Shown here: piece by piece, positions 3,856 through 29,092 of the stretch
Layout: each line of letters starts with the position of its first letter
How positions within the stretch are numbered: position 1 is the stretch's first letter
Assembly: GCA_027064005.1 (NCBI GenBank)
Contig: JAMOQM010000114.1
Span: forward strand, 1 to 34,363
Source of the DNA: Candidatus Cloacimonadota bacterium
Lineage (GTDB): Bacteria > Cloacimonadota > Cloacimonadia > Cloacimonadales > JAMOQM01
DNA: 34,363 bases
Direction of reading: 5' to 3'
Position numbers and translations under genes: made by a program
The notes under the pieces: model-generated
The model's input: only the letters and a program-made list of their open reading frames with translations
What the model was told of the DNA's origin: nothing
The model's database searches: none

Positions 3856-4362
3856 ATGGAAAAAAACAATTGGTTTGGACGATGGATTTATTCTTTCATT
3901 ATCCTCAGCGTTGGTTGGTTGCTATTTACATTTCCTTATAATCAAGAAGAATTGATTGTAGGTTTAATAGCATCCTTTGTTATTTCTCTATTCACTGCAA
4001 ATTTCTTTAAAGAATTCGGATTAAAAAGTTTCAGTCCAATGAGAATTATCGGACTAATCCTATATATCCCTTATATTCTTTGGGAAATAGTTATCGCAAA
4101 TTTAGAAGTTGCTAAAATTGTGCTTTCACCGAATTTACCAATTAAACCGGCAATCGTTAAAGCTAAAACAACTTTGAAAAGCGATTTTGGCAAGATGCTT
4201 CTTGCAAACTCCATTACTTTAACCCCCGGAACGTTGACCTTGGATATCGACGGAGACGATGTTTATATTCATTGTTTGAAAATCGAAGATACATCCGAAG
4301 AAAACGCAACAAAAACAATAACCGCCAAATTTGAAAAACATCTCAGGAGGTTTGTTGTATGA
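3856..4362 (+). CDS. mrpE: Mrp/Mbx antiporter subunit, MrpE-like (MbxA)
   Basis: 168 residues with ATG preceded by AAGGAAGG. Two or three membrane helices fill the first half (SFIILSVGWLLFTF, LIVGLIASFVISLF, IIGLILYIPYILWEIVIANL). A soluble tail follows with the MrpE signature NSITLTPGTLTLDIDGDDVYIHCL. MrpE/MbhA belongs to the small-subunit bundle of Na+/H+ antiporter modules in Mrp, Mbh and Mbx complexes. It is the first gene of a twelve-gene operon and overlaps the next gene by an ATGA, with that gene's AGGAGG inside its own 3' end. Confidence 0.9.
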   Translation: MEKNNWFGRWIYSFIILSVGWLLFTFPYNQEELIVGLIASFVISLFTANFFKEFGLKSFSPMRIIGLILYIPYILWEIVIANLEVAKIVLSPNLPIKPAIVKAKTTLKSDFGKMLLANSITLTPGTLTLDIDGDDVYIHCLKIEDTSEENATKTITAKFEKHLRRFVV

Positions 4363-4628
4363 ATACTCTTTATTGGATTTGGTCAATCATACTTTCAATT
4401 TCGATATTGATGGTTTTGACAAGATTTATCAAAGGTCCGGCTTTACCGGACAGAGTAATTTCGTTAGATATGTTTACAACGATTACCACGGGTTTGTTGG
4501 TTTTAATTTCATTTTTTCTTAACAATTACATTTTACTTGATGTTTCATTGGTTTATGCCGTCTTAGCATTTATCTCCGTTTTGATAATGGCAAGATATCT
4601 CGAATCAACTAATGAGGAGGAGAAATAA
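4359..4628 (+). CDS. mrpF: MrpF-like antiporter subunit (MbxB)
   Basis: 89 residues with three predicted membrane helices and the MrpF signature KGPALPDRVISLDMFTT between helices 1 and 2. Length and topology match the MrpF/MbhB family. Together with MrpE and MrpG it forms part of the sodium-translocating bundle. The start overlaps the mrpE stop (ATGA) and the stop overlaps the mrpG start (TAATG), so translation is coupled. Confidence 0.92.
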   Translation: MNTLYWIWSIILSISILMVLTRFIKGPALPDRVISLDMFTTITTGLLVLISFFLNNYILLDVSLVYAVLAFISVLIMARYLESTNEEEK

Positions 4629-4951
4629 TGGAAATAATCGGAATAATATTAATCTCAATCGGAGTCATTTTTAGCACTCTCGGTGCTCTTGGTTTGATAA
4701 GAATGCCCGATATTTACAATAGATTACAAACAAGTACAAAAGCAACCACTTTAGGAGCATTTTCCACTATTATCGGAGTAGGATTTATGCATCCGGCTTG
4801 GTTGATTAAAACAATTCTCATTGCTTTCTTTATTTTGATGACTGCTCCGATAAGTTCTCATAATTTAGGAAAAGCAGCTCATAAAGCAGGAATTCCGTTA
4901 ACTGATAAAACTCAAATTGACGAATGTCCTCAAAAGGAGGAAAATAAATGA
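4628..4951 (+). CDS. mrpG: MrpG-like antiporter subunit (MbxC)
   Basis: 107 residues with three membrane segments. The MrpG motif GALGLIRMPDIYNRLQTSTKATTLG (about residues 19-43) and the later MTAPISSHNLGKAAHKAG block are both conserved. Usual family length is about 100-120. A GAGGAGG Shine-Dalgarno lies within the end of mrpF; the stop overlaps the next start as ATGA. Confidence 0.92.
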   Translation: MEIIGIILISIGVIFSTLGALGLIRMPDIYNRLQTSTKATTLGAFSTIIGVGFMHPAWLIKTILIAFFILMTAPISSHNLGKAAHKAGIPLTDKTQIDECPQKEENK

Positions 4952-5184
4952 TAGTATTAATTTATCTTTCCGCAATCGTGATGATAATTTCTGCACTTTA
5001 TGCTGTTTACGCTAAAGACCTTTTAGTCTCGGTTGTAGCTCTCGGTATAAATAGCTTAATTGTCTCCGTTCTTTTCTTCTTAATGCATGCTCCCGATGTT
5101 GCAATTACTGAAGCAGCTATTGGAGCAGGTTTATCTACCGCAATCTTTGTTTTTGCGATAAAACACACAGAGAGGAAGGAATAA
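4948..5184 (+). CDS. mbxD: MbhD/MbxD-like subunit (DUF4040; corresponds to part of MrpA C-terminal region)
   Basis: 78 residues, almost entirely three hydrophobic helices, with the family block LMHAPDVAITEAAIGAGLSTAIFVFAIKHTER. In canonical Mrp operons this segment belongs to the C-terminal part of the large MrpA protein. As a free-standing gene it is typical of Mbh/Mbx complexes. The conserved acidic residues of APDVAITEAAIG are thought to line the Na+ path. The start is coupled to mrpG (ATGA). Confidence 0.88.
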   Translation: MIVLIYLSAIVMIISALYAVYAKDLLVSVVALGINSLIVSVLFFLMHAPDVAITEAAIGAGLSTAIFVFAIKHTERKE

Positions 5185-5185
5185 T

Positions 5186-6010
5186 ATGAAAAATACACAA
5201 GGTATGGTTAATGCTTTTTTCGCGTTCCTATTAGTTGTAATTTTAGGTATTTTCTTTTTTAATGCCATAAATCAACCTTTAGGAAACGGATTAGTTTTAA
5301 ATAAAGATAATCCTGATCTTTCTAAAAGAGTCTCGATACATTATATATTAAAAAATGTTCATAATGCTGAAGATTATCTTGCTCAACATAAAAGTTCTTA
5401 CTTTAGAAACAGAGATAAAGTGAAATCATCCAATTTAGAATTTGGGAAAACAAAAAATGCCGAATCAGGTTCAGCTAACGAAGTTACTTCTATTGTTGTT
5501 AACTATCGTGGTTTTGATACACTTGGTGAAGTAACGGTTTTATTCATTTCTATTTTAGGATTGGGAATGCTTCTCCATGAGAATAAGAAAAAATATTGGG
5601 CAAAACCATCTCTAATCGTTAGAACCGGAGCAAATTTCTTGTTCCCATTCATCGTATTATTTGGTGTTTATGTTTTCGTTCACGGACATCTTACCCCTGG
5701 TGGCGGTTTCCCGGGAGGAACTATTATTGCTTCGGCAGCATTACTTCTTATTCTTGGTCTGAAAGATTTTAAAAATAAACTTACAATGACAAAAATCATC
5801 GAAAGTTTGGCAGGTCTTACTTTTGCCGGATTGGGTTTAGTTGGTTTATTTACAAACGGTTCTTTCTTAACAAACTTTTTACCAAGTGGAACAATGGGTT
5901 TATTGGTTAGTAGCGGTATTACTGCTCTTATCTATATCGCTGTCGGTATTAAAGTTGCGGCGGAATTGTCTTCCGGAATTATGGAAATGAACGGCGGAGG
6001 TGAAGAATGA
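5186..6010 (+). CDS. mrpB: MbhE-MbhF (MrpA C-terminal end + MrpB) fusion
   Basis: 274 residues comprising two families joined. Residues 1 to about 135 match MbhE-type subunits: an N-terminal helix, then the soluble block YILKNVHNAEDYLAQHKSS and TSIVVNYRGFDTLGEVTVLF. From about residue 150 it is MrpB/MnhB (RTGANFLFPFIVLFGVYVFVHGHLTPGGGFPGGTIIASA), whose PGGGFxGG loop is diagnostic. Family members are usually separate proteins of about 100 and 150 residues. The junction is intact in one frame, so the fusion looks genuine. It sits in the sodium-translocation unit and overlaps mrpC by ATGA. Confidence 0.88.
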   Translation: MKNTQGMVNAFFAFLLVVILGIFFFNAINQPLGNGLVLNKDNPDLSKRVSIHYILKNVHNAEDYLAQHKSSYFRNRDKVKSSNLEFGKTKNAESGSANEVTSIVVNYRGFDTLGEVTVLFISILGLGMLLHENKKKYWAKPSLIVRTGANFLFPFIVLFGVYVFVHGHLTPGGGFPGGTIIASAALLLILGLKDFKNKLTMTKIIESLAGLTFAGLGLVGLFTNGSFLTNFLPSGTMGLLVSSGITALIYIAVGIKVAAELSSGIMEMNGGGEE

Positions 6011-6363
6011 TTCAAAGTACTTTCTTTTATACAACCGCAATAATCCTTTTCTTAATTGGACTTTACGGTGTTTTGACAAAACGAAATGTAATCAAAACAA
6101 TCATAACACTTACAATTATGGAAACGGCGGTTAACCTATTTTTGGTAACTATTGGTTATGTTAAAAATGGTACAGCTCCTATTTTTACATCAACAATTAG
6201 TGATGTTCATAAATTTGTAGATCCGTTACCGCAAGCATTGGTTCTTACTTCAATCGTAATTGGTTTAGGTACAACAGCTTTGATGCTTTCCTTAGCAATT
6301 CGATTATACAAAAAATATAAAACATTAAATTATTTAGAAATGGATGGTGAAGATGAAAAGTAA
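6007..6363 (+). CDS. mrpC: MrpC/NuoK-like antiporter subunit (MbxG)
   Basis: 118 residues with three membrane helices. Signatures include GLYGVLTKRNVIKTIITLTIMETAVNLFLV and the later DPLPQALVLTSIVIGLGTTALMLSLAIRLYKKY, characteristic of MrpC/MnhC and homologous to NuoK. The conserved glutamate in IMETAVN is equivalent to the proton-path Glu of NuoK-like subunits. It overlaps mrpB upstream and the MrpD-like gene downstream. Confidence 0.93.
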   Translation: MIQSTFFYTTAIILFLIGLYGVLTKRNVIKTIITLTIMETAVNLFLVTIGYVKNGTAPIFTSTISDVHKFVDPLPQALVLTSIVIGLGTTALMLSLAIRLYKKYKTLNYLEMDGEDEK

Positions 6364-7861
6364 TTATGCAGTATTATTGATAGCTATTCCTTTGTTGGTA
6401 GCTTTTCTTCAGCCATTATTTAGTTTGATTAATAAAAGATTAACCAAATGGGTAACATTTTTAACAATTGGTTTTAACTTTATTTATTCATTAAAATTAC
6501 TTAATTATGTAATGGCAAATGGTGCTCAAATAGCTATAATTGGAAATTGGAAACCGCCTTTCGGCATAAATCTATATTTATCTCCTTTTTCAATGTTATT
6601 TGCAACAATTATATATTTTGTTGCTCTTATTGTTCTTTTGGTTTATTTAATTGACAAACCAACAGAAGTTGATGATAGAATGAGCATTGCAACTTTATTA
6701 ATGGTTATGGCATCCGGTGCAATCACATTAACCGGTGACATTTTTAATATGTTTGTTTTTGTGGAAATTCTCTCAATCTCAACCGTGATTTTGATTTCTT
6801 TCAATAACAAAGGTATTTCTTTTAAAGGTGCTTTCCGCTACATTGTTTTGGCATCACTTGGTTCCAGTATGTTATTGCTTGCAATTGGATTTATCTACGG
6901 AAGTTTAGGAACGTTAAATTTAGCTTCAATAGCTTATAGATTTAACCTTTTAAATCCTGTTTATGCTTCTGTAATAGTATTTCTGTTTATGGCAGGCATT
7001 ATGGTCGAAGCTGAACTTTTCCCATTTAATGCTTGGGTTCCTGAAGCTTATAAAGGCTCAAAATCATATTTGAATGCTCTTTTAAGCGGAGTTGTCGGAA
7101 CAACCGGAATTTACGTTTTATTTAGAATGTTTATAACCATTTTTGGTTCAGGTCAAAATCATATCCAAGTAATCGGTTCGGTTAATTTTAATGCCGTAAT
7201 TATTGTTATTGGGGTATTAACAACTTTAATCGGTGAATTCTCAGCTCTTTCTCAAAAAGATATCAAGAAAATATTGGCTTTTTCTTCAATGGCTCAAATG
7301 GGTATTATTGCCGTAACAATCGGTGTTGCTAATATGAATTCCATTAATGCCGGTATTTTCCATTTGATAAATCATGCATTCTCAAAATCATTGTTATTTA
7401 TCGTTGCTTTCCCGATTATAAACATTGTCGGCTCAGCTAATATTGATAAATGGGAAGGTCTCGGAAGAAAAAACATCTTCCTCGCAATAGCTTTTGCGAT
7501 CGGTTCTTTTGGTCTTATCGGAATACCTTTCTTCAACGGATTTTGGTCAAAAATGATGATCGTAGAATCAGTTGTTTCAGCCGGTGGTTGGATGTATCTG
7601 GTTATCGGAACAATCCTCCTATCAGCTTTAGTTGAAACATTCTATTTCTTTAGAATTATCTTCAAATTATTTGTAGATAAAAAAATTGAAAGCACTTATA
7701 GCGTTCATATTTTTATTTACCTCGCTATTCTTATCTTATCTATAATAGTGATTTATATCGGTATAAAACCTTCTTTCTTAGCTACTTATATTCATAAAGC
7801 AGCTATCGATTTGGTTGATAAATCACATTATATTTCTACTGTTTTGGGGGTGATTAAATGA
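6353..7861 (+). CDS. mbxH: MrpD/MbhH-like antiporter subunit (MbxH)
   Basis: About 502 residues of a NuoN/MrpD-type proton-translocating subunit with about 14 membrane helices. ATG 6353 is preferred; an in-frame ATG at 6344 would add three residues. It overlaps the end of mrpC by 8-20 bp. The helix-5 glutamate is present (NMFVFVEILS, Glu about 138), as is the HLINHAFSKSLLFIVAF block. The helix-7 motif reads GIMVEAELFPFNAWVPEAY, with Glu where NuoL/M/N proteins normally have GxKAxxFPxHxW. That fits the MbhH branch rather than canonical MrpD. It is the antiporter-like subunit that contacts the MrpC-like and MbxM-like subunits. Confidence 0.92.
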   Translation: MKSNYAVLLIAIPLLVAFLQPLFSLINKRLTKWVTFLTIGFNFIYSLKLLNYVMANGAQIAIIGNWKPPFGINLYLSPFSMLFATIIYFVALIVLLVYLIDKPTEVDDRMSIATLLMVMASGAITLTGDIFNMFVFVEILSISTVILISFNNKGISFKGAFRYIVLASLGSSMLLLAIGFIYGSLGTLNLASIAYRFNLLNPVYASVIVFLFMAGIMVEAELFPFNAWVPEAYKGSKSYLNALLSGVVGTTGIYVLFRMFITIFGSGQNHIQVIGSVNFNAVIIVIGVLTTLIGEFSALSQKDIKKILAFSSMAQMGIIAVTIGVANMNSINAGIFHLINHAFSKSLLFIVAFPIINIVGSANIDKWEGLGRKNIFLAIAFAIGSFGLIGIPFFNGFWSKMMIVESVVSAGGWMYLVIGTILLSALVETFYFFRIIFKLFVDKKIESTYSVHIFIYLAILILSIIVIYIGIKPSFLATYIHKAAIDLVDKSHYISTVLGVIK

Positions 7862-9756
7862 TAAGTAATATATTATTATACACGATGATTGCTGCTGTTA
7901 TCAGTTTTGCTCTAGGGCAAAAACTTAAAGCAGTCAGATGGTCATTCTCCGCTTTATTTTTAGGATATGTCGGCTTCCAGCTCTACGGACTTTACGGTCA
8001 ATGGGGTATGGTTGAAACCCATAATATTTTCTCTTTAGGCTCAATTAACTTTTCTCTTAATTTTGGTATAACCAAATTAGGATGGTTTTTTGCCTTTTTC
8101 ACAACAATTATAAATATTATGATTTGGATTTTCTCTATTGTAAAAAATATGAATGAGAAAGAAGAGAGAGGAATTAATTTTCTTTGGATTTTGTTAGCCG
8201 GTTCAAATTTGGCTATCTTCTTCTCAGTAGATTGGATTACCTTTTTTATTGCTTGGGAAATTATGACTTGGACATCTTTCTTTATTATTACTCCGGGGTG
8301 GAAAAATTCTTTCAAAGCTGCAAATTGGTATTTTATCTTAAGTATGTTTGGTGCTTATGCAATGTTAGTTGGAATTTGGTGGCTATACGCAACACCGGCA
8401 ATTCATACTTTAAATATTGCTTCATCAATAGCTTTATTGGCTAAATTATCTATTACAGCACCGGGAACGGTTGGAATTATTATTGCCCTTTTTGTATTAA
8501 GTTTCTTTGCAAAATCAGCAGTATTTCCATTTCATCCTTGGCCGGCCGAAGCTCATGCTGAAGCTCCCGATGACTTTTCTCCTTACCTTTCCGGTATAAT
8601 GATTAAATATGGTTTATACGGAATTTTATTGTTCATTGTTCCATTATTTATTCAAATTATGAAGGTTAATCCAAATATTGCGATGGTAAACGGAATTCCG
8701 GTTTATTCATATATTTTAGCATGGTTTGGAGCAATTACAGCAGTTCTCGGAACATATCTTGCAATTGTATCTAATGATATGAAAAAATTGGCTGCTTATT
8801 CTACCGTTTCCAATATCGGTTATGCGGTTACTTCAATGTTCATTTTATCTTCAGCAGGTGTTACGGGTGGACTTTTCCACGTCGTAAATCACGCTGTATT
8901 TAAAAGTGCAATATTCTTGTCTCTCGGAGCGGTAAAATTTAGGACTCATGAACGTGAAATGCACAAATTAGGTGGTTTAGCAACCAAAATGCCAATAACT
9001 TTCTTAACTTTCTTATTAGGAATTATTGCTGCTGCCGGTATTCCACCATTAAATGGTTACGCCTCAAAATGGATAATTTACCAAGCTTTATTGTCCGGGC
9101 ATTTTCCATTTTTAACAACAATGATTTTCCTCGCTTCAACAGGTGCATTTTTGTATTTGTTCCGAGCATTACATTCAATATTCTTAGGACAATTACCACG
9201 CAAATTTAACAATGTTAAAGAAGTTCCTTTTTTGATGCAAATTCCAATGATTTTGGGAATTCTCTCAATGTTAGGAATTGGTTATGCTCCCGGTATTGTT
9301 TTGAAACCTATCGGATTGGCCGTTAAAGCAATGGGTTTAACTCCGATGACTGTTGAAAATACTTTGATGGTCGGAAAATTATCTTCAATTAATACAGCTG
9401 TCGTTAGTTCAACTTTTATAGGTGCTTTCTTTTTTGCATTCGCATTTTATCTTATCGGTAAAAAAAGGCATCACGTTGAACCTTTGGACAACTATACTGC
9501 CGGTCAGGATCCTGAAGAATTTGGTTTAACTCCTGAATTATATCATTTCGCTTTGAAATTTTATGAACCGGTTAAAAATATCTTCAGACCTATAGAAGAA
9601 AAACTAAATATTAAAAATTATTATAGAGCGTTAGTTAGAAACGCAAATTCTTTCGGAGCAACTTTATCAGAGATGTTTAAATTGTCCGGTGCCGGTTCAT
9701 CAATGATATTTGTACTTGGATTAGTTGTAATTATTTTAGCAGGATGGATGTTATGA
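7858..9756 (+). CDS. mbxH': Second antiporter-like subunit, MbxH' (NuoL/MrpA-type)
   Basis: 632 residues, a second NuoL-like protein encoded directly after MbxH with an ATGA overlap and GGGGGTG ribosome site. Canonical residues are intact: helix-5 Glu134 (AWEIMTW), helix-7 Lys219 and the FPFHPWPAEAHAEAP block, and a lysine in HVVNHAVFKSAIFL. About 100 residues at the C-terminus (from KKRHHVEPLDNYTAGQDPEE) form a cytoplasmic stretch, then a final helix. Carrying two antiporter subunits (H and H') separates Mbx/Mbs complexes from the single-H Mbh hydrogenases, and implies two ion channels per complex. Confidence 0.9.
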   Translation: MISNILLYTMIAAVISFALGQKLKAVRWSFSALFLGYVGFQLYGLYGQWGMVETHNIFSLGSINFSLNFGITKLGWFFAFFTTIINIMIWIFSIVKNMNEKEERGINFLWILLAGSNLAIFFSVDWITFFIAWEIMTWTSFFIITPGWKNSFKAANWYFILSMFGAYAMLVGIWWLYATPAIHTLNIASSIALLAKLSITAPGTVGIIIALFVLSFFAKSAVFPFHPWPAEAHAEAPDDFSPYLSGIMIKYGLYGILLFIVPLFIQIMKVNPNIAMVNGIPVYSYILAWFGAITAVLGTYLAIVSNDMKKLAAYSTVSNIGYAVTSMFILSSAGVTGGLFHVVNHAVFKSAIFLSLGAVKFRTHEREMHKLGGLATKMPITFLTFLLGIIAAAGIPPLNGYASKWIIYQALLSGHFPFLTTMIFLASTGAFLYLFRALHSIFLGQLPRKFNNVKEVPFLMQIPMILGILSMLGIGYAPGIVLKPIGLAVKAMGLTPMTVENTLMVGKLSSINTAVVSSTFIGAFFFAFAFYLIGKKRHHVEPLDNYTAGQDPEEFGLTPELYHFALKFYEPVKNIFRPIEEKLNIKNYYRALVRNANSFGATLSEMFKLSGAGSSMIFVLGLVVIILAGWML

Positions 9757-10640
9757 TAGTACTTAAATTTATTGGATATGGCTTTACTGCGATTATCATT
9801 GGATTGTTATTTATGGGAATTGGTCGTAAATACACAGCAAGAATTCAAAGACGTTACGGTCCTCCGTTTTGGCAAGCGTTTATTGATGTAACAAAGTTGT
9901 TTTCAAAACAATCTCTTTCTCATAATTGGATTATGGATTTCGGTATTCTTATGGGATTTGCCGGTATTGTCGGAACAATTCTTTTTATGCCGATCGGCCC
10001 CTGGCACTTTTTCAGTTTGATGAATGGTAACATTGTCATTATTATGTATTTTATGACAATTGGATCCCTCGGAATGGCAATGGGGGTTTCTGCCAGTGGA
10101 AACCCGAATTCAACTATCGGTATTTCCAGAGCTTTGACGTTAATGGTGGGATATGAAATTCCTTTCGTAATCGCTGTAATCGGCTTAATCTTTGTTAGTA
10201 AATCATCTCTTTTGGGAACTATGGTTAGTTTGCAAAGTGGTGGAATTATGAATTGGAATATTATTAAATACCCATTTGGATTTATAGCTGTTGAAATGGC
10301 TTTGCAAGCAATGTTGGGTGAAAAACCTTTCGATGTGATTACTGCTCCGTCTGAAATTGCTTCAGGTCCGATGGTTGAATTAAGCGGAAAAATGATGGGT
10401 TTGGCTTTTCTGCAACATGCAGCCCAAATCTTCCTTGAAACCGGAATCGTTGTTAATTTATTCTTAGGTGGAGCAAATAATATTTGGGAATTTTTCCTTA
10501 AACAATTTGTTTTGTTCATATTATCTTTAACTGTAAATGCAATATCTCCTCGTTTCAAATTTGAGGATGCTGTAAAATGGCTTTGGACTTGGCCTACAGT
10601 TTTTGCTCTCATTCAATTATTGATAATTATATTAACATAA
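9753..10640 (+). CDS. mbxM: NuoH/HyfC-like membrane anchor subunit (MbxM)
   Basis: 295 residues. ATG 9753 overlaps the previous stop (ATGA) and has AGGA eight bases upstream; ATG 9744 in the same frame would lie inside the preceding gene. The protein carries the complex-I NuoH signatures RIQRRYGPPFWQAFIDVTKLFSK and GEKPFDVITAPSEIASGPMVELSGK, and about eight helices. This subunit joins the peripheral redox arm to the membrane arm and forms the conformational relay (the quinone chamber in complex I). Its placement before J-K-L matches archaeal Mbx gene order. Confidence 0.92.
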   Translation: MIVLKFIGYGFTAIIIGLLFMGIGRKYTARIQRRYGPPFWQAFIDVTKLFSKQSLSHNWIMDFGILMGFAGIVGTILFMPIGPWHFFSLMNGNIVIIMYFMTIGSLGMAMGVSASGNPNSTIGISRALTLMVGYEIPFVIAVIGLIFVSKSSLLGTMVSLQSGGIMNWNIIKYPFGFIAVEMALQAMLGEKPFDVITAPSEIASGPMVELSGKMMGLAFLQHAAQIFLETGIVVNLFLGGANNIWEFFLKQFVLFILSLTVNAISPRFKFEDAVKWLWTWPTVFALIQLLIIILT

Positions 10641-10649
10641 GGAGAAAAA

Positions 10650-11216
10650 ATGATACAAACATCAACAAAAGATTTGCACGACAGTGGCTTTGAAAAAGTT
10701 CTAAACTTTTTTAGAAAAAGGTCAATGTGGATGCTTCATTATTGTACAGGTTGTGGAGCGATGGAATTACCACCAACTATGACAACTCGCTGGGATATGG
10801 AACGTTTTGGAATTGGACCTATGGCTACTCCGCGTCAAGCCGATTTATTACTCATCACCGGCTATCTTTCTATAAAATCTCTGAAAAGAGTGATCAGAAC
10901 TTACGAACAAATGCAAGATCCAAAATGGGTTATTGGGTTTGGTTCATGTACAATTAACGGTGGAATTTATTATGATTCTTATACCGTGATTAACAGATTA
11001 TCTGATTATATTCCGGTGGATTTGACAATTGAAGGCTGTATGCCAAGACCTGAAGCTATTATGACAGGATTTCAAACTTTAATGGATGCTATCCAAAAAG
11101 GTGAAGCTGTCGGATATAAAAAATATAAAGAAAATTATGAATGGTATAAAAAGAATCAAGATTCCGTACTTGGAAGAACTGAACCGGTTTTCACTTCAAG
11201 TGAGGTAAAAAAATGA
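10650..11216 (+). CDS. mbxJ: NuoB/[NiFe]-hydrogenase small-subunit-like protein (MbxJ)
   Basis: 188 residues with AAGGAG before the ATG. The proximal [4Fe-4S] cluster ligands are all visible: Cys32 and Cys35 (HYCTGCGAMEL), Cys100 (GFGSCTINGG) and Cys130 (IEGCMPRPEA). The CxxC spacing is of the hydrogenase/Mbh type rather than the tandem CC of complex I NuoB. This cluster receives electrons from the ferredoxin-like subunit and passes them to the site at the interface with MbxL. The basic C-terminal tail (GYKKYKENYEWYKK) is common in the group. It overlaps the next gene by ATGA. Confidence 0.93.
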   Translation: MIQTSTKDLHDSGFEKVLNFFRKRSMWMLHYCTGCGAMELPPTMTTRWDMERFGIGPMATPRQADLLLITGYLSIKSLKRVIRTYEQMQDPKWVIGFGSCTINGGIYYDSYTVINRLSDYIPVDLTIEGCMPRPEAIMTGFQTLMDAIQKGEAVGYKKYKENYEWYKKNQDSVLGRTEPVFTSSEVKK

Positions 11217-11698
11217 ATCAAAAAGAAATTATAGAATTAATCGACAATAAATTCGGTATTGTAAAATCGAATATTTACGATGAATACCAATTAAGTGTTG
11301 TTGTAAAAAAAGAAAATATCTTTGCCGCTTTGGCATTGATGCAATTAAACGATTTTAAAGAATTATCAATTCTTACAGCCGTAGATTGGTTTGATAGAAA
11401 TGTCTTTGAAGTCGTGTATATCCTTTTTTCTTATACTCATAATCAACAACTTATTCTAAAAACTGAAATCGAACGTGATAATCCTGAAATAGTTTCAGTT
11501 ATGAAATTATGGGAAGTTGCCGAAACTTATGAAAGAGATGTCCATGAATTTTTCGGAATTAAATTCCTCGGAAATCCAAGCTTAAAACCGTTTTTCTTAC
11601 ATAATTGGTTGGATATGCCACCAATGAGAAAAGATTTTAAAACGCAACAATATTCAGATAAAGTTTTTGGTAAAACAAAAGAAGAGAGGGAAAAATGA
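11213..11698 (+). CDS. mbxK: NuoC-like 30-kDa subunit (MbxK)
   Basis: 161 residues. The signature is ERDVHEFFGIKFLGNPSLKPFFLHNW, then PPMRKDF, diagnostic of the NuoC/30-kDa family. It has no cofactor and stabilises the NuoB-NuoD-like core. It is coupled by ATGA overlaps at both ends (11213-11216 and 11695-11698). Confidence 0.92.
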   Translation: MNQKEIIELIDNKFGIVKSNIYDEYQLSVVVKKENIFAALALMQLNDFKELSILTAVDWFDRNVFEVVYILFSYTHNQQLILKTEIERDNPEIVSVMKLWEVAETYERDVHEFFGIKFLGNPSLKPFFLHNWLDMPPMRKDFKTQQYSDKVFGKTKEEREK

Positions 11699-12831
11699 GT
11701 GATAATCTAACTTATTTGGGAATGGAAGACCAGTACAAAAAATATGAATTGTTTTTCGGACCTAACCACCCCGGTATGAACGGAAACTTTTCCTATATTT
11801 TGACTGTTGAAGGACACACAATCGTTAAGGCTGAACCGGTTCCGGGATTGCTTCATAGGGGTTTTGAAAAATTAGTTGAACAAAGATTATGGTTGCAAAA
11901 TATTTCATTAATTCTTAGAATCTGTGTTCCTGAACCTGATATTAATGAATTGGTTTATTCCAGAATTATCGAGAAATTAATGGGTGTTGAGATTCCCGAA
12001 AGAGCAAAATTCATCAGAACTATAGTGCTCGAAATGTCAAGAATCGGTGCGTTTCTACTGGGATTTGGCGGAATTGGCGGAACAACCGGACTTTATACCG
12101 CTCCGAACTGGACTATTGCAGACAGAGATTATCTTTTGGATCTTTGGGAATGGATTTCCGGTGCCAGAGTTTATCATATGTTTATCCTCCCGGGCGGAGT
12201 TCGTAGAGATCTTCCGGAAGGTTGGATTGAAAAATTGCAAAAAACTATTGCTTACCTTGAAAAACGTTTACCTGAATATGATCGATTGATTTATAACAAT
12301 CCGTTAATTGTTAAACGTGTCACAGGTTTAGCTCCCATAACTCAAGAAGATGCCATCAAATACGGTATTACCGGTCCAAACTTAAGAGCCACCGGAGTTA
12401 AATTTGATGCCAGAAAAAATGTTCCTTATGCTGCTTATCCTTATCTTGATTTTGATATCCCCACCCAAACAGGTGGAGATGGTTTTGCTCGTGTAATTCA
12501 AAGACGTGAAGAATTTGAGATTAGTTTGAATCTTGTCAAACAAGCAATTAAGTTAATGCCAAAAGGTGAAGTTAGAGCTCCAATGCCAAATGCTTTAAAA
12601 TTCAGAGTACCTAAAGGAGAAAGATACGTTCGCGTTGAATCTGCTCGTGGTGAACATGGATTTTATATTGTTTCGGATGGAACGGAAAAACCTTATAGAA
12701 TGGCAGTTAGAGGCGGTTCTTATACTGCCGGTTTAATTTATGCTAAAAAAGCTCTCGAAGGAATGCGAATTGAAGATGTTGCTCTTTGGATGGCAACAAT
12801 GGATATTTGTGCTCCCGATTTTGACAGATAG
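11695..12831 (+). CDS. mbxL: NuoD/hydrogenase large-subunit-like protein lacking a full [NiFe] site (MbxL)
   Basis: 378 residues with the 49-kDa/large-subunit fold (FFGPNHPGMNGNFSYIL, PGLLHRGFEKLVEQR, RGEHGFYIVSDG). True [NiFe] hydrogenases have CxxC near the N-terminus and CxxC near the C-terminus. Here the first reads C77-V-P-E80 and the second C372-A-P-D375, so only the first cysteine of each pair survives. A Ni-Fe centre with four thiolate ligands cannot form. This separates the protein from Mbh hydrogenase and places it with Mbx/Mbs-type large subunits. It probably couples electron arrival at the MbxJ cluster to ion pumping. AGGAG and 8 bases separate it from the fused ferredoxin gene. 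Confidence 0.92.
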   Translation: MSDNLTYLGMEDQYKKYELFFGPNHPGMNGNFSYILTVEGHTIVKAEPVPGLLHRGFEKLVEQRLWLQNISLILRICVPEPDINELVYSRIIEKLMGVEIPERAKFIRTIVLEMSRIGAFLLGFGGIGGTTGLYTAPNWTIADRDYLLDLWEWISGARVYHMFILPGGVRRDLPEGWIEKLQKTIAYLEKRLPEYDRLIYNNPLIVKRVTGLAPITQEDAIKYGITGPNLRATGVKFDARKNVPYAAYPYLDFDIPTQTGGDGFARVIQRREEFEISLNLVKQAIKLMPKGEVRAPMPNALKFRVPKGERYVRVESARGEHGFYIVSDGTEKPYRMAVRGGSYTAGLIYAKKALEGMRIEDVALWMATMDICAPDFDR

Positions 12832-12839
12832 GAGAAATT

Positions 12840-14693
12840 ATGAATTATAAAGATAAAAGTAAATTAGCACCGCTCTCAGCCCTAAAGTATCTTTTTAAAG
12901 ATCCCATAACTATTCGTTATCCTCAAGAAGAGAAAGAAGGTTATCCAGGTGGATTTAAAGGCGTTTCTCCAAAATACAGGGGAATGCATTCCAACGATTT
13001 GGAAAAATGTATCGGTTGCGGAAGTTGTTCGGAAATTTGTCCTACCGATGCCATCAGAATGGTTGAGGCTGAAGATGTTGAAGAAAAATTCGGAGCAACT
13101 AAAGAACGCCCAGTTATAGATTACGGAAGATGTTGCTTTTGTGCCTTTTGCGTAGAAGTTTGTACAACCGGATCCTTAAATATGACCAGAGATTATATTC
13201 ATGATTATGTCAGCCCAATTGATAAAACGGGTAAAGATTTATCGGAAACAATTTCAGAAGAATTTATTAGAAGACCCGATTATAAGCACGAAGAGAATTT
13301 GGGATGGAATACTCCTGACGAATATTCTTGGTTGGAACTTGAAAGAGTGAAAATGGAAGAATTAAAACCATCTGAAAGAGATCATTCTTTTATTGAAATC
13401 GTGAAAGGTTTTTCTAAAGAACAGGCAACCAAAGAAGCTCAAAGATGCGTTTCTTGCGGATTATGTACCGAAGTTTGTCCGGCTCATATGGACATTCCGG
13501 AATATATCCAATCTATTTTTGATGCCGATTTGGAAGAAGGTTTGCGTCAACTTTACAAAACAAATCCGTTGCCGGAAATTTGCGGTCGTATTTGTACTCA
13601 TAAATGTGAAACCGCTTGTTCAATTGCTCATCGTGGTGAAGCGTTGTCGATTCGTTGGTTAAAACGATATATTGCCGATTCGGTTCCACTTGATAGTTAT
13701 AAAAAATATCTTGGAATTAATTATATCAAACAGATAGACAAAAAAATCGCTATTGTTGGTGCCGGTCCTGCCGGATTATCAGCAGCTTATTATCTTTCAT
13801 TATTAGGATATAAAACAACGATTTTTGAAGCTCTCCCAAAACCGGGTGGTATGATGCGTTACGGTATTCCTGAGTATCGTCTTCCTTATGACCAAATTGA
13901 TAAAGATATTAATTTTATCGAATCTCTCGGTGTTGAAATAAAATGTAATACAAGAGTAGGTAAAGATATAACTCTTGATGAATTACATAAAACTCATGAT
14001 GTCGTTTATATTGCTACCGGTTTGCATCTTGGAAGAAGTACAAGAATTCCGGGTTCTGACCATAAAAATGTTTATTATTCTACTGATTTATTGCGTGAAG
14101 TTTCTCTTGGAAATGAAATTCCTGTTGAGAAAAAAATTGTAATTATCGGTGGCGGTAATGTAGCTATGGATATTACCAGAACTCTTGCCAGACTGCAAAA
14201 TATTAAATACGGTAAAGTTGATATTACAACTACTTCTTTGGAATCGGAAGATATTATGCCTGCTGATCGTGAAGAAATTGTTGAAGCTCGCGAAGAAGGT
14301 GCAACAATAGATCCTGGTTGGGGACCTAAAGAAATCGAAATCAAAAACGGTAAAGTTGTTGGTCTCCACGTTGTGAAATGTCTTTCCGTATTTGACGAAG
14401 ATCATAGATTTAGTCCAAAATTTGATGAAAGTCAGAAAAAATTCTTTGCTGCCGATATGGTGGTTCAATCTATCGGTCAGGCAATGGATTTATCTTACAT
14501 CAGCGAAGACATAAAATCAAAATTAACTTTCGGACCGCGTGGAAGAATCAAAGTAAATGAAAATTTCCAAACGGATTTGGATTGGTTATTTGTTGGCGGT
14601 GATATTATTCAAGGACCTGATGCAATTCATGGTATCGCGAATGGTCACACCACAGCCAAAGCTATTGATGATATGTTAAATAAAAATAAATAA
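12840..14693 (+). CDS. MbxN (NuoI-like 2x[4Fe-4S]) fused to GltD/NfnB-like NAD(P) oxidoreductase
   Basis: 617 residues in three parts. Residues 50-115 are a NuoI/MbxN ferredoxin with two [4Fe-4S] sets: C57, C60, C63, C67 and C98, C101, C104, C108. Residues 185-290 are the GltD-type N-terminal cluster domain (C203, C206, C209, C213; C248, C252, C256, C260). Residues 300-617 are the FAD/NAD(P) module: GAGPAG at 307-312 for FAD, GGGNVAMD at 437-444 for the nicotinamide nucleotide, and VGGDIIQGPDAIHGIANG near the end. GltD/NfnB proteins transfer electrons between NAD(P)H and iron-sulfur clusters. As the last gene of the Mbx operon, the fusion gives the complex its own nicotinamide port. The YRR-type NADPH-phosphate motif before MPA is replaced by TTTSLESEDIMPA, so NADH is possible. 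Confidence 0.9.
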   Translation: MNYKDKSKLAPLSALKYLFKDPITIRYPQEEKEGYPGGFKGVSPKYRGMHSNDLEKCIGCGSCSEICPTDAIRMVEAEDVEEKFGATKERPVIDYGRCCFCAFCVEVCTTGSLNMTRDYIHDYVSPIDKTGKDLSETISEEFIRRPDYKHEENLGWNTPDEYSWLELERVKMEELKPSERDHSFIEIVKGFSKEQATKEAQRCVSCGLCTEVCPAHMDIPEYIQSIFDADLEEGLRQLYKTNPLPEICGRICTHKCETACSIAHRGEALSIRWLKRYIADSVPLDSYKKYLGINYIKQIDKKIAIVGAGPAGLSAAYYLSLLGYKTTIFEALPKPGGMMRYGIPEYRLPYDQIDKDINFIESLGVEIKCNTRVGKDITLDELHKTHDVVYIATGLHLGRSTRIPGSDHKNVYYSTDLLREVSLGNEIPVEKKIVIIGGGNVAMDITRTLARLQNIKYGKVDITTTSLESEDIMPADREEIVEAREEGATIDPGWGPKEIEIKNGKVVGLHVVKCLSVFDEDHRFSPKFDESQKKFFAADMVVQSIGQAMDLSYISEDIKSKLTFGPRGRIKVNENFQTDLDWLFVGGDIIQGPDAIHGIANGHTTAKAIDDMLNKNK

Positions 14694-14699
14694 TAGGAA

Positions 14700-14735
14700 T
14701 AAGAACCGGATTAAGTTTCGGTTCTTACCCTTTTT
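14700..14735 (+). terminator. Rho-independent terminator after the Mbx operon
   Basis: A 9-bp stem TAAGAACCG/CGGTTCTTA (14700-14708 and 14719-14727) with a 10-base loop is followed by CCC and five T. It falls just after the fusion gene stop and before the ferritin-like gene, so it may end or attenuate the Mbx transcript. Confidence 0.65.
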
Positions 14736-14752: not shown

Positions 14753-15208
14753 ATGAGAGGTTTAAGCTTAAAGGAAATTATCGAATTTTCTGAAAAAATA
14801 GAATTGGAAAGCTATGAGTTTTATTCAAAGGCAAAAGAGTTAATTGATGAAGAAGAAACAAAATTACTATTAAATTTACTTGCTGATGAAGAAACCGGAC
14901 ACTATAATCATTTGAGAAGTTTAATCAACAAAGGAAATTTAACTGCTGATGAATTGGATGCAAAACTTTTGCTCAAGGAAGAATCTTTATCTCAATTTGT
15001 TAATACTGACAAAATTGAAAAAGGATTTTCCGGAAAACAAATTCTTGAAATTGCTTTGGATAGAGAAAAAAAAACAGAACAACTTTATGCAATGTTTATG
15101 ACTCTGACCGATATAAATGTAAAAGTATTGAAAATCTTTACAGATTTGAGAAATCAAGAAAAAGGACATGTTAGTAAAATTGCTACCCGCTTAAAAAAAC
15201 ATAATTAA
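14753..15208 (+). CDS. Ferritin-like / rubrerythrin-type diiron protein
   Basis: 151 residues, ATG preceded by AGGAG. The four-helix ferritin-like fold is supported by two carboxylate/histidine sets. The first half has E17/E19 with YEFY, then DEETGHYNHL (E46/E47, H50). The second half has E99, E109 and NQEKGH (E136, H139). No C-terminal rubredoxin CxxC motif is present, so it is a short erythrin-like form rather than classical rubrerythrin. Such proteins detoxify peroxide or handle iron in anaerobes. It follows the Mbx operon but is separated from it by a hairpin, so a shared transcript would be partial at best. Substrate unknown. Confidence 0.82.
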   Translation: MRGLSLKEIIEFSEKIELESYEFYSKAKELIDEEETKLLLNLLADEETGHYNHLRSLINKGNLTADELDAKLLLKEESLSQFVNTDKIEKGFSGKQILEIALDREKKTEQLYAMFMTLTDINVKVLKIFTDLRNQEKGHVSKIATRLKKHN

Positions 15209-16889: not shown

Positions 16890-19800
16890 TTATTTCAAAA
16901 TCATCATTTTCTTTATATCTCTAAAATCATCTGTTTCCAGCTTATAAAAATAAATTCCTGAAGCACATTTGGTATTATTTGAATCCAATCCTCTCCAAAT
17001 AATAGATTGGTCTCCCCTATTTAATTTCTTATTATAGAGAGTTTTTATTCTCTGCCCTTTAATATTGTAAATTGCCAGATTGACATTTGAACTTTTCCTT
17101 AAATAAAACGAAATAGTTGTCCCAAAATTACGATTATTTCCTGAAATTATAAAAGGGTTGGGATAGGCATTATTTAATTTGGTTATTGTCGGGAAATTGT
17201 TATTTTCAGAATCAATTGCAACTATTCCATTATCAATAATTGTCCAATTAAATGTATCAATAATATATTGTCGAGCAGCTTCAGAATTTTCAGAATATTC
17301 ACTATTACCTCCGGAGAATTCGACATCATTTTGCAGGTCAAGAGTTGCCCAATTATTTAGAATAGCGTCATAATTTTCGGTAGAGAGAGTTAAATCTAAA
17401 AACATATTTGCCATATTTTCTACATTTTCCACATCCCAGCTTCCTATGTTTTGGTCAAAACTCGAAGCATCACAAAACATTGCTCCCATATTTGTTACGT
17501 TGGCTACATTCCAATCTCCAATATCCTGATTAAAAGATGAAGCTCCTAAAAACATTCCGTACATATTAATAACATTACTGACATCCCACGAATTGATATT
17601 TTGATTAAATGCACTAGCGTATGAAAACATAGATACCATTTTTGATACGGAACTGACATTCCATAAACTTATATCTTGATTAAAACTTGAAGCACCGCTA
17701 AACATTGAAACCATATTGGTTACATTTCCAACGTTCCAAGATCCAATATCCTGATTAAATGAAGAAGCGTTATAAAACATTTTGAACATGTTATTAACAT
17801 TACCAACATTCCAAGAACCAATATCTTGATTAAATAATGAAGCTCCCGAAAACATTTGTTTAGTACTGGATACATTTTCAACATTCCAATCTTCTATACT
17901 TTGATTAAAATTACTCGCATCTTTAAATAATTTATCCATATCACAAACATTACTGACGTTCCAAGAATTTAAGTTTCGGTTGAAATTTGTTGCCCCCTCA
18001 AACATCGATTCCATCGTTATTACGTTAGAAACATCCCAAAGACCAATTTCCTGATTAAATGATTCCGCACCGGAAAACATATTCGACATATATTCAACAT
18101 TACTGACATTCCAAGAATGTAAAATTTTATTAAACGAAATTGCATTATTAAACATATCCATCATACTGATAACATTGCTAACATTCCAATCTCCTATATA
18201 TTGATTGAAATTATCAGTATATGCAAACATCGAATCCATATAGTTTACATTTATTGTATTCCAATCATTAAGATTTTGATTAAAATGTTCAGCATTATAA
18301 AACATACTCCCCATATTTGTTACATTTTCCACATTCCAAGAATCAATACTTTGATTAAAATTTATGGCATTCTTAAACATCTGGCTCATATCTGCTACAT
18401 TATCAGTATTCCAATTTTCAACTAAACCGTTAAATTCTGTTGCATTATAAAACATTGAATTCATATCTATTACATTTATTGTGTTCCAACTATTTAGATT
18501 ATGATTAAAAGATTCAGCATGATAAAACATTTCCGCCATATTTGTTACATTTTCCACATTCCAATAATCAATAATTTGATTAAAATTTATGGCATTCTTA
18601 AACATCTGGCTCATATCTGTTACATTATCAGTATTCCAATTTCCAACTAAGCCGTTAAATTCTGTTGCATTATAAAACATTGAATTCATCTCTATTACAT
18701 TTATTGTATTCCAACTATTTAGATTATGATTAAAAGATTCAGCATGATAAAACATTTCCGCCATATTTGTTACATTCTCTACATTCCAGGATCCAATACT
18801 TTGATTAAAATTTATGGCATTTTTAAACATTTGGTTCATATCTGTTACATTACCAGTATTCCAATTCCAAACTAAGCCGTTAAATTCTGTTGCATCTTCA
18901 AACATTGAATTCATATCTATTACATTTATTGTATTCCAACTATTTAGATTTTGATTAAAATGTTCCGCATGATAAAACATTTCCGCCATATTTGTTACAT
19001 TTTCCACATTCCAATAATCAATACTTTGATTAAAATTGGTGGCATTTTTAAACATTTGGTTCATATCTGCTACGTTATCAGTATTCCAATTCCCAATTAA
19101 TCCGTTAAATTCTGTTGCATTATAAAACATTGAATTCATATCTATTACATTTATTGTATTCCAACTATTTAGATTATGATTAAAAGATTCAGCATGATAA
19201 AACATTTCTGCCATATTTGTTACATTCTCTACATTCCAGGATCCAATACTTTGATTAAAATTTATGACATTTTTAAACATTTGGCTCATATCTGTTACAT
19301 TATCAGTATTCCAATTCCAAACTAAGCCGTTAAATTCTGTTGCATCTTCAAACATTGAATTCATATCGGTTACATTTATTGTATTCCAACTATTTAGATT
19401 TTGATTAAAATGTTCCGCATGATAAAACATTTCTGCCATATTTGTTACATTCTCCACATTCCAAGAATCTATACTTTGATTAAAATTGGTGGCATTTTTA
19501 AACATTTGGCTCATATCCGCTACGTTATCAGTATTCCAATTTTCAACTAATCCGTTAAATTCAGAAGCATCTTTAAACATTGAATTCATATCGGTTACAT
19601 TTATTGTATTCCAACTATTTAGATTTTGATTAAATTGTTCAGCATTATAAAACATATTTCCCATATTTGTTACATTCTCCACATTCCAGGATCCAATACT
19701 TTGATTAAAATTTATGGCATTTTTAAACATTCCGTTCATACTATTTACATTTGATACATCCCATAAACTGATATCTTGATTGAAAGAAGTTGCATTTTCA

Positions 19801-20384
19801 AACATGCGATACATATTTGTAACATTGCTAACATCCCAATTACTAATATTTTGATTAAATGATTCGGCATTGGAAAACAAATGATTCATATTTGAAATAT
19901 TACTAACATCCCAACTGCTAATATCAGAATTAATTGATGAGGTAAAATAAAACATATATCCTAAATTTCTAACTGAAGCCGGAAGAGAATTTGGTACTTC
20001 GGATAAATTATAAGCGTGAGAAAATGCTCCGCTAAAAGAAATAATTCCGAGATCTCCAAAATTTAGAACTTTTGTAAGTTTAGTTGCATCAGGATATGTA
20101 CTATATCCATCACCAAATTGAGTAAGTGTTCCGGAAATTGTAACATCATAAACTCCCTCAATAGCGTAAGTATGAGCTTTATCTCCTGACTCGATAACAT
20201 TTTCTATATTTTCATCCCCCCAATCGATATTGACATTAACATTCCCATGTAATGGTAAGAAAATAGTTGTACCGTTAGAAAGTGTAGTGTCATATTCCAA
20301 AACCATTTCAGTCCTTTCAAAAGCAAATAGCTCGGCTGTAAACAATAATAAAGATATCAATAAAATTTTTGAAACTATATTCAT
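16890..20384 (-). CDS. Secreted BspA-like DUF285 repeat protein with FlgD-like C-terminal domain
   Basis: 1164 residues, ATG with GAGGAG upstream. A signal peptide (about residues 1-21, ending ELFAF) is followed by a PKD-like region with IDWGDENIEN and HTYAIEGVYDVTISG. Residues 156-1005 are 34 uninterrupted repeats of exactly 25 residues, consensus xSWNVxNVTNMxxMFxxAxxFNQxI. This is the DUF285/26-residue surface repeat, related to BspA leucine-rich-like solenoids. The C-terminal 90 residues (YPNPF, LAIYNIKGQRIKTL, ASGIYFYKL, KKMMILK) are the FlgD-like/T9SS-type domain of secreted proteins in FCB bacteria. Probable role: surface adhesin or matrix protein (inference from family). Only one gene, facing the FadL gene across a terminator. 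Confidence 0.9.
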   Translation of the reverse strand: MNIVSKILLISLLLFTAELFAFERTEMVLEYDTTLSNGTTIFLPLHGNVNVNIDWGDENIENVIESGDKAHTYAIEGVYDVTISGTLTQFGDGYSTYPDATKLTKVLNFGDLGIISFSGAFSHAYNLSEVPNSLPASVRNLGYMFYFTSSINSDISSWDVSNISNMNHLFSNAESFNQNISNWDVSNVTNMYRMFENATSFNQDISLWDVSNVNSMNGMFKNAINFNQSIGSWNVENVTNMGNMFYNAEQFNQNLNSWNTINVTDMNSMFKDASEFNGLVENWNTDNVADMSQMFKNATNFNQSIDSWNVENVTNMAEMFYHAEHFNQNLNSWNTINVTDMNSMFEDATEFNGLVWNWNTDNVTDMSQMFKNVINFNQSIGSWNVENVTNMAEMFYHAESFNHNLNSWNTINVIDMNSMFYNATEFNGLIGNWNTDNVADMNQMFKNATNFNQSIDYWNVENVTNMAEMFYHAEHFNQNLNSWNTINVIDMNSMFEDATEFNGLVWNWNTGNVTDMNQMFKNAINFNQSIGSWNVENVTNMAEMFYHAESFNHNLNSWNTINVIEMNSMFYNATEFNGLVGNWNTDNVTDMSQMFKNAINFNQIIDYWNVENVTNMAEMFYHAESFNHNLNSWNTINVIDMNSMFYNATEFNGLVENWNTDNVADMSQMFKNAINFNQSIDSWNVENVTNMGSMFYNAEHFNQNLNDWNTINVNYMDSMFAYTDNFNQYIGDWNVSNVISMMDMFNNAISFNKILHSWNVSNVEYMSNMFSGAESFNQEIGLWDVSNVITMESMFEGATNFNRNLNSWNVSNVCDMDKLFKDASNFNQSIEDWNVENVSSTKQMFSGASLFNQDIGSWNVGNVNNMFKMFYNASSFNQDIGSWNVGNVTNMVSMFSGASSFNQDISLWNVSSVSKMVSMFSYASAFNQNINSWDVSNVINMYGMFLGASSFNQDIGDWNVANVTNMGAMFCDASSFDQNIGSWDVENVENMANMFLDLTLSTENYDAILNNWATLDLQNDVEFSGGNSEYSENSEAARQYIIDTFNWTIIDNGIVAIDSENNNFPTITKLNNAYPNPFIISGNNRNFGTTISFYLRKSSNVNLAIYNIKGQRIKTLYNKKLNRGDQSIIWRGLDSNNTKCASGIYFYKLETDDFRDIKKMMILK
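18345..19694 (-). repeat. Six tandem 225-bp copies inside the BspA-like gene
   Basis: Repeat units 4-21 of the protein form six copies of a 75-residue triplet: a SWNVENV unit, a SWNTINV unit and a NWNTDNV unit. Copies differ by few residues. Alternating variants (AEHFNQNL with FEDATEFNGLVWNWN, versus AESFNHNL with FYNATEFNGL) show a further 450-bp duplication, 19020-19469 against 18570-19019. Outside this block the 25-residue units are much more diverged. Confidence 0.9.
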
Positions 20385-25039: not shown

Positions 25040-25175
25040 ATCAATTCTTTTCTCAAAATAATTATTTCCATTTTTACCGAAGGATAATCCGAAAATTTTG
25101 TCTGAATTAGAAAAATCAAGTCATCTTAAATATTAGGAATGCTATTTGCATTTTAAAATAAAAAAAAGGAAATTT

Positions 25176-26618: not shown

Positions 26619-26620
26619 AA

Positions 26621-27547
26621 ATGAGAAAAATTATTATTTTAGGGATTGTTATTTTCGGATTATTAATCGGTTGTGAAGTGAAAAATCCAACTTTCCCGAA
26701 TAACGAAAAACCAATGGTTTATGTAACTTATCCGCTTGATGAAGAAACAATTACGGATAGTTTGCTTGATTTGAATTTTGACGTTGAAAACGAACAAAAT
26801 ATAGATTCGTTGCAGGTTTTTCTTAATGGAAATAAAATTGCCGTTTTAACAACAACACCATATAGGTTTCAAATCTCGAAAAATGATTACGAACTCGGGA
26901 CAAAAGCGGTTTATGCCAAAGCTTTTGATAGCAACGGCACAGTCGGAATTTCGGAAATTAAAACATTTTATTGGTTATCCGATATAGAATCATCCGATAT
27001 AAAAATAGAATTTCTGAGACCCATATTATGGGAAGAATTCCCGACGTCTTCCGTAAATGTAAAGTTATTAGTGGAAAGTGAGTACTCTATTGACAGCATT
27101 TTTGTATATGTTGACGGCAATCTGATTCACACTTTTACCGGTGAACCTTATGAAACCATTTTACAAATCGCCAATCCGGGAACTCATAATATTTATGCGA
27201 AAGCCAAAGATTCCCAAAACATAACGGCAACAACCTCTCTTGTTAATTTTTCAATTAATTTGCCGGATATTGAACCGCCAACAGGATTTATTTCTTATCC
27301 TGCGGACTGGAATGATGTAAGCGGTAATTTTTCCGTGAGGATAACAGCTACCGATAATGTTGAGGTTTCCGAAATAGAATTGTTTATTGACGGTGAATCT
27401 TTTGGCAATACAACCTCTGAACCATATGAATTTCAAATAGATTCGACAACTTTGGATAATGGGAATCATACTGTTTTTGCTAAAATTATTGATTCGTCCG
27501 AACTGTTTTCTTATACACAAATGATAAATATCCGAGTAGAGAATTAA
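26621..27547 (+). CDS. Lipoprotein with three Ig-like domains
   Basis: 308 residues from ATG 26621, which has AGGAG five bases upstream; GTG 26615 in frame overlaps that site. The signal peptide ends in the lipobox LLIGC (Cys18), so the protein is lipid-anchored. Three repeated beta domains of about 85-95 residues follow, each with the pattern VxxxYPxDxxxxx...IDSxxVFxxGxxI...PYxFxI...G...VYAKAxDxxG (about residues 28-115, 125-215, 222-305). These are Bacterial Ig-like domains common on extracellular carbohydrate-active proteins. In this operon it may hold the polymer or assemble the export machinery; that role is inferred from context only. It overlaps the GT2 gene at its ribosome site and the next gene by TAATG. 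Confidence 0.75.
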   Translation: MRKIIILGIVIFGLLIGCEVKNPTFPNNEKPMVYVTYPLDEETITDSLLDLNFDVENEQNIDSLQVFLNGNKIAVLTTTPYRFQISKNDYELGTKAVYAKAFDSNGTVGISEIKTFYWLSDIESSDIKIEFLRPILWEEFPTSSVNVKLLVESEYSIDSIFVYVDGNLIHTFTGEPYETILQIANPGTHNIYAKAKDSQNITATTSLVNFSINLPDIEPPTGFISYPADWNDVSGNFSVRITATDNVEVSEIELFIDGESFGNTTSEPYEFQIDSTTLDNGNHTVFAKIIDSSELFSYTQMINIRVEN

Positions 27548-29091: not shown

Positions 29092-29092
29092 A

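Follow-up and report, generated by a model that had tools for sequence, protein, structure and literature searches.

The stretch of DNA analyzed here (the “window”) is the 34,363-nucleotide contig JAMOQM010000114.1 of a Candidatus Cloacimonadota bacterium (assembly GCA_027064005.1). RpoB of this genome agrees with that placement: it shares 68% identity with RpoB of a named Cloacimonadota and 47% with that of Bacteroidota. Positions 3856-14693 of this Cloacimonadota sequence are filled by 13 overlapping or closely spaced open reading frames (ORFs), all on the + strand. An earlier reading of the letters alone (the “original prediction”) held that they encode a complete Mbx-type complex, i.e. one related to membrane-bound sulfane reductase (MBS), in which a flavin-containing nicotinamide module is fused to the ferredoxin subunit. 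Searches of Pfam and NCBIfam bore out both the completeness and the gene order: MrpE, MrpF, MrpG, MbhD, an MbhE-MnhB fusion, MrpC, H, H', NuoH-, NuoB-, NuoC- and NuoD-like subunits and, last, a NuoI-GltD fusion. The 13-gene MBS/MBX set is complete in the window (Mrp module, fused E-F, H and H', M, J, K, L and N). The features are given below; “6u8y” is the structure of Pyrococcus furiosus MBS, and MBH is membrane-bound hydrogenase.

3856-4362, +: MrpE-like (MbsA) subunit (Pfam MNHE, 4.6e-41)
4359-4628, +: MrpF-like subunit (Pfam MrpF_PhaF, 1.6e-16)
4628-4951, +: MrpG-like subunit (Pfam PhaG_MnhG_YufB, 5.5e-24)
4948-5184, +: MbhD-like subunit (Pfam MbhD, 1.5e-22)
5186-6010, +: fused MbhE-MbhF (MnhB) subunit, cf. 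P. furiosus MBS chain E (Pfam MnhB and MbhE; top PDB match 6u8y_E, which covers both parts, 150 bits vs. 69 for MBH)
6007-6363, +: MrpC/NuoK-like subunit (Pfam Oxidored_q2, 1.1e-28)
6344-7861, +: MbsH-like antiporter-like subunit H (top PDB match 6u8y_H, 283 bits vs. 175 for MBH)
7858-9756, +: MbsH'-like second antiporter-like subunit H' (top PDB match 6u8y_X, 237 bits vs. 145 for MBH)
9744-10640, +: NuoH/MbsM-like membrane anchor (6u8y_M, 176 bits vs. 91 for MBH)
10650-11216, +: NuoB/MbsJ-like proximal-cluster subunit (6u8y_J, 237 bits vs. 116 for the runner-up; equivalents of C25, C28, C93 and C123)
11213-11698, +: NuoC/MbsK-like subunit (NCBIfam NuoC families)
11695-12831, +: NuoD/MbsL-like large subunit without a NiFe site, having only the C85/C385 equivalents (6u8y_L, 364 bits vs. 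246 for the next, complex I)
12840-14693, +: MbsN/NuoI dicluster ferredoxin joined to a GltD/NfnL-type NAD(P)H module with FAD and two [4Fe-4S] clusters (NF010590, 3e-265, end to end; NuoI half, 6u8y 89 bits vs. 56 for complex I)
13200-13343, +: interdomain linker, residues 121-168, the inferred exchange breakpoint (identity scan, topology tests, trees)
14700-14727, +: strong terminator-like hairpin at the operon end, directly 3' of the fusion-gene stop (11-bp stem, T-rich tail)

The membrane core

PDB searches were carried out with seven subunits or domains (H, H', E/F, M, J, L and the NuoI half of the fusion). For all seven, P. furiosus MBS was the top relative, ahead of MBH and complex I. 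In MBS, the proximal [4Fe-4S] cluster is held by only three Cys ligands (MbsJ C28, C93 and C123), C25 being too distant; MbsL retains C85 and C385, and the quinone-binding His38 and Tyr87 of Nqo4 have been lost (Yu et al., PMC7684303). Residue alignments located all of these hallmarks in the window operon. A [NiFe] hydrogenase (Mbh group 4) was ruled out, as the two CxxC pairs are missing and the large subunit has only RICVPEPD and DICAPDFDR. Complex I (Nuo) was ruled out by Asn and Val at the positions of Nqo4 His38 and Tyr87; the Val is found in all aligned homologues. The operon contains no NuoEFG, and the L gene is the only Complex1_49kDa (NuoD-like) gene in the genome. Judged by these matches and residues, the encoded complex is a bacterial member of the MBS/MBX type, neither a [NiFe] hydrogenase nor complex I.

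Among the aligned fused-operon homologues in which the site is covered, all have the equivalents of MbsJ C28, C93 and C123 except L032, which was called short and lacks one of them. Gly or Ala takes the place of C25 in operons of the Cloacimonadota/Bacteroidota type and in L144, so many of these complexes would have no fourth Cys for the proximal cluster. This predicted lack is a separate line of evidence, from sequence, in favor of an open-site cluster.

The likeness to P. furiosus MBS thus spans composition (including the fused E-F and H'), the pattern of cluster ligands, C85/C385 of MbsL and the missing NiFe site. Two differences were noted. First, MbsN of P. furiosus is a 208-aa ferredoxin-type subunit without a flavin module. 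Second, in the charged axis of H, the equivalents of E138, E219, H330 and K393 are kept, whereas K250 of MbsH is Thr in the window. All five axis residues of H' (E128, K217, K248, H336 and K399) are kept. Nearly all bacterial fused operons have T, V, A, E, F, L or G in place of K250, and their MbsH' subunits retain Glu128, Lys399 and mostly the other axis residues. The distal pump (H) of the bacterial fused operons may operate differently.

Other variations of the core were also observed. In 13 Bacteroidota/Cloacimonadota/Delongbacteria-type operons (L024, L025, L035, L038, L108, L110-L113, L115, L116, L120 and L122), H and H' are combined in one ORF of ca. 1040 aa, a “double-pump” fusion; they are separate ORFs in the window and in Thermotogota. 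The L118 and L144 operons form a deep branch in which Cys85 and Cys385 of the large subunit are both gone (Asn, and Val or Ala) and the nicotinamide module is distinct and lacks the YRR motif described below; this branch is possibly a further functional variant. The “Mrp-linked group 4g hydrogenase” of Ca. Tenebribacter (PMC8542988) was considered as an MBS-type complex and rejected, since a true NiFe large subunit (RICGICS...DPCYCCTE) is present there besides a fused-type operon.

The NuoI-GltD fusion and exchange of its nicotinamide half

The last gene of the operon is one open frame of 617 aa, in which, as the original prediction had it, a NuoI-like subunit continues in frame into a whole GltD/NfnB-type flavoprotein. 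The NuoI-like dicluster ferredoxin (residues ca. 1-120) is followed by a weakly conserved linker (ca. 121-168) and a complete GltD/NfnL-type flavoprotein (ca. 169-617). Residues 4-616 aligned with positions 7-609 of the 611 in NCBIfam NF010590/PRK13984, which bears the name “putative oxidoreductase”; the score, 881 bits, is under the equivalog cut-off of 946 bits for that family. An AlphaFold model calculated from a 37-sequence alignment had a mean predicted local distance difference test score (pLDDT) of 84.7 and a predicted template modeling score of 0.81. Its top fold match was P. furiosus NfnL (5jca_L), with a template modeling (TM) score of 0.89 by target length. Over residues ca. 167-615, the module resembles NfnL and GltD (5jca_L, 4ylf_B; GltD 6s6s) in its whole fold and in its FAD/two-cluster architecture; eight Cys residues that would ligate the two [4Fe-4S] clusters are invariant in the alignment, and two dinucleotide-binding folds are present.

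Apart from being fused to NuoI, the window module differs from NfnL/GltD in its second nucleotide-binding fold. There, YRR is an NADP(H)-type motif; the window copy has TSLES (TTSLES) at this place, and the stretch YRR...MPA is replaced by TTSLESEDIMPA. Because YRR is missing, and given what is generally known of such folds, we infer that the window copy uses NADH rather than NADPH.

The fusion was thought at first to be novel, with Thermotogales merely placing a GltD-like gene beside the operon. Neither idea held. Among 14 control genomes searched at E < 1e-100, only Thermotoga maritima matched NF010590, and it exceeded the 946-bit cut-off, as Thermotogota members do. The full-length fusion was found in 69 of 101 Thermotogota genomes and 42 of 125 Cloacimonadota genomes. 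In genome G085, which we take to be T. maritima MSB8, the operon comprises the identical 13 genes and ends in a fusion of 618 aa. The T. maritima MBX (mbxA = THEMA_RS08165) has the same genes in the same order, and the two fusions are 53% identical over their length; the window core is closer to that of other Thermotogota (G113 and G100), and the window GltD half is closer to Cloacimonadota/Bacteroidota copies. The search for such fusions next to mrp/mbx genes that had been suggested at the outset located the same operon, closed by the fusion, in at least eight phyla. Operons of this layout, either complete or cut off only by a contig end, were found in named organisms from Fermentibacterota, Bacteroidota, Spirochaetota, Mycoplasmatota, Gammaproteobacteria (Ca. 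Thiodiazotropha), Thermotogota, Cloacimonadota, Delongbacteria and Aminicenantes. By its family membership, then, the fusion is not new but belongs to an established family with an uncharacterized function. A search of the accessible literature returned no report of a NuoI-GltD fusion, although an earlier description may exist. What deserves further work is that the open-site ligands are conserved and that nicotinamide halves appear to have been swapped.

In trees of M, J, K and L, the window fell in a group with G113 and G100, both of them Thermotogota operons (100% in the SH-like approximate likelihood-ratio test, SH-aLRT). The NuoI half of the fusion did likewise (62-64% identity, support 92/78), and the NuoI halves of Cloacimonadota and Bacteroidota formed a separate clade (100/99). 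The GltD half grouped with modules of Cloacimonadota, Fermentibacterota and Bacteroidota (70-74% identity, support 100/99); these Cloacimonadota/Bacteroidota relatives also lack YRR. Approximately unbiased (AU) tests, whose p values are indicative because the groups were chosen after the trees had been seen, rejected trees that join the window core to the Bacteroidota/Cloacimonadota group (p 1e-43) and trees that join the window GltD half to G113/G100 (p 3e-104). Placement of the window NuoI half with seven close GltD relatives was rejected at p 0.0009; for the whole 14-row group, p was only 0.07. The crossover in the identity profile falls in the linker, at residues 121-168. On the evidence of these phylogenies, the window fusion gene is a domain chimera, with a Thermotogota-like N-terminal part and a Cloacimonadota/Bacteroidota-like C-terminal part. 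The core genes have host-like G+C content at third codon positions (GC3) and codon usage (correlation of 0.975 with the rest of the window), which makes a misassembled contig unlikely and favors an old event.

The state of the YRR motif changes once on the GltD tree, against three changes on the trees of the core and of NuoI; for the core, a single clade of YRR operons is rejected (p 0.0001). The difference between the module and core trees would be explained most simply if nicotinamide halves had been exchanged repeatedly, with the linker as the breakpoint. A broader proposal, that one ancestral, ion-pumping MBS core has repeatedly swapped its nicotinamide module within one fused gene between an NADP-type (YRR) and a presumed NAD-type, giving modular NAD(P)H-fed respiratory sulfane reductases, is offered as a possibility about which we are doubtful. 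Two operons of the fused kind were seen in some Cloacimonadota genomes: G004 (L111/L116), G011 (L107/L119), G018 and G025 (L118/L122). In G004 and G011, one operon has a YRR-type and the other a non-YRR fusion; if the proposal were true, these organisms would run two machines off two nucleotide pools.

Electron input and a candidate acceptor

The function tentatively favored, somewhat short of an even chance, is that of a sulfane/polysulfide reductase fed by NADH (possibly also by ferredoxin) and coupled to ion pumping. In this scheme, the GltD half would accept hydride from NADH onto FAD, and electrons would traverse the two clusters of the GltD half and then the two NuoI clusters, i.e. all four [4Fe-4S] clusters of the fusion. 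Ferredoxin might also deliver electrons at the NuoI clusters. The destination of the electrons would be the open proximal cluster; there, in a chamber that J, L and M form, polysulfide, sulfane or another disulfide would be cleaved or reduced. The reduction would be coupled via M and H'/H to movement of H+ or Na+, together with the Mrp module. The sulfane-reductase assignment is preferred because the open-site cluster is conserved and because mbxA of T. maritima is induced by S0 (4.4-fold; PMC9431562). The function of the T. maritima MBX has itself only been predicted, from P. furiosus MBS (PMC9431562). A comparable scheme has been proposed for the “dehydrogenase-linked MBX” of Thermosphaera aggregans, in which a SudA/GltD-type NADPH dehydrogenase would be the electron input for proton or sulfur reduction (PMC3035292). 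There, too, an MBX operon is paired with a dehydrogenase of this type, and the mechanism favored here follows the same logic; that system, however, is archaeal and has a separate sudA-like gene replacing fdhA (PMC3035292).

Several points weigh against this assignment. The linker had low pLDDT in the AlphaFold model, and K250 of MbsH has been lost in most bacterial copies. Under standard conditions, the potentials of NADH and polysulfide lie close together (ca. -320 vs. ca. -260 mV), so electron transfer between them releases little energy; pumping from NADH alone would therefore require low sulfide or few ions. Finally, neither NAD(P)H nor reduced ferredoxin supported H2S formation from S0 by membrane fractions of T. 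maritima, although the membranes had not been purified further and the assay with ferredoxin was performed at 40° C (PMC9431562).

The strongest competitor, though unlikely, is an ion-translocating ferredoxin:NAD(P)+ oxidoreductase, in which electrons would pass from ferredoxin via the NuoI clusters and the GltD flavin to NAD(P)+ and the energy would drive the membrane arm, or the gradient would drive the reverse reaction (NADH to ferredoxin). The NAD(P)H module is fused to the very subunit that takes ferredoxin electrons in MBS, the driving force from ferredoxin to NAD+ is good, the Pyrococcus MBX was formerly read as a ferredoxin:NADP+ oxidoreductase (PMC6349859; PMC3035292), and the failure of T. 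maritima membranes to reduce sulfur (PMC9431562) is in keeping with it. Both redox sites would, however, lie on the peripheral arm, and electrons could bypass the pump-coupled proximal cluster and chamber. The conserved three-Cys cluster, which points to substrate reduction in the chamber, would be left without a role. The original prediction had cast such an enzyme as an alternative to Rnf and had called for a check for rnf elsewhere in the genome; a complete rnfCDGEAB operon is present, which argues against that part of the idea, and a Na+-coupled Rnf is reported for T. maritima (PMC7414866). The oxidoreductase function as such is weakened but survives.

Less probable still is that the complex is a cytosolic-side NAD(P)H:acceptor enzyme whose substrate is not sulfur but a small organic disulfide or other hydrophobic compound. 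Some hosts are not known for sulfur respiration, and the MBS mechanism proposed by Yu et al. (PMC7684303) extends to organic disulfides; but no candidate substrate gene is conserved near the operon, the sole recurrent neighbor seen being a rubrerythrin-like gene.

An electron-confurcating sulfur reductase, in which an NfnL-like flavin would merge streams from NADH and ferredoxin that both feed the proximal cluster, is improbable. It would suit the closest fold of the module, that of bifurcating NfnL (FAD and two [4Fe-4S] clusters), and the weakness of NADH by itself as a donor to polysulfide. Yet bifurcation is not a property of GltD, whose architecture is the same, and the operon has no NfnS partner; only one DHODB_Fe-S_bind gene occurs in the genome, a PyrK-sized, 250-aa ORF on another contig.

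An artefact, i.e. a misassembly or frameshift near position 13390 that joined two genes or created the chimera, is scarcely credible: the differing affinities of the two halves and the fragmentation of the genome into 153 contigs would fit it, but full-length, single-frame homologues occur in dozens of independent and unrelated genomes, the inferred junction is in frame within a natural linker, and the core has the codon usage and GC3 of its host.

A relative of complex I that has neither a quinone nor a NiFe site and is predicted to be nicotinamide-linked and ion-pumping is encoded by many phyla of anaerobes; T. maritima and gammaproteobacterial symbionts of animals are among the carriers. 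Published models describe a ferredoxin-dependent sulfur reductase and leave the NAD(P)H module out of account. With the conserved open-site cluster and the swapped module, the questions of acceptor and nucleotide become directly testable, and the answers would bear on how a complex I-like machine gains an NADH input other than NuoEFG.

Neighboring and other redox genes

Beyond the terminator-like hairpin, at positions 14753-15208 of the window, lies a gene for a 151-aa rubrerythrin/ferritin-like protein. A rubrerythrin-like neighbor of the operon recurs in several Cloacimonadota, in one Spirochaetales genome and possibly in one Thermotogales genome. Elsewhere, the genome of the window organism contains a NuoEF-formate dehydrogenase locus (contig C101), one gene with an [FeFe]-hydrogenase domain and two CoA-disulfide-reductase/NSR-like genes that scored under the family cut-off. 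A locus of NuoE, NuoF and a 1113-aa protein (2Fe2S, GltD and NuoG-like parts; L140, G000:C131:20550-25663) resembles the StnABC/NfnABC bifurcating transhydrogenases.

On the - strand of the window, positions 16890-20384 encode a probable surface protein of 1164 aa, which has 14 DUF285 repeats and, at its C terminus, an FlgD-Ig-like domain. A probable operon for exopolysaccharide export or modification occupies positions 25146-34086, with genes for a family-2 glycosyltransferase, an Ig-domain protein, a TPR protein and two proteins (1075 and 594 aa) that have polysaccharide-deacetylase domains.

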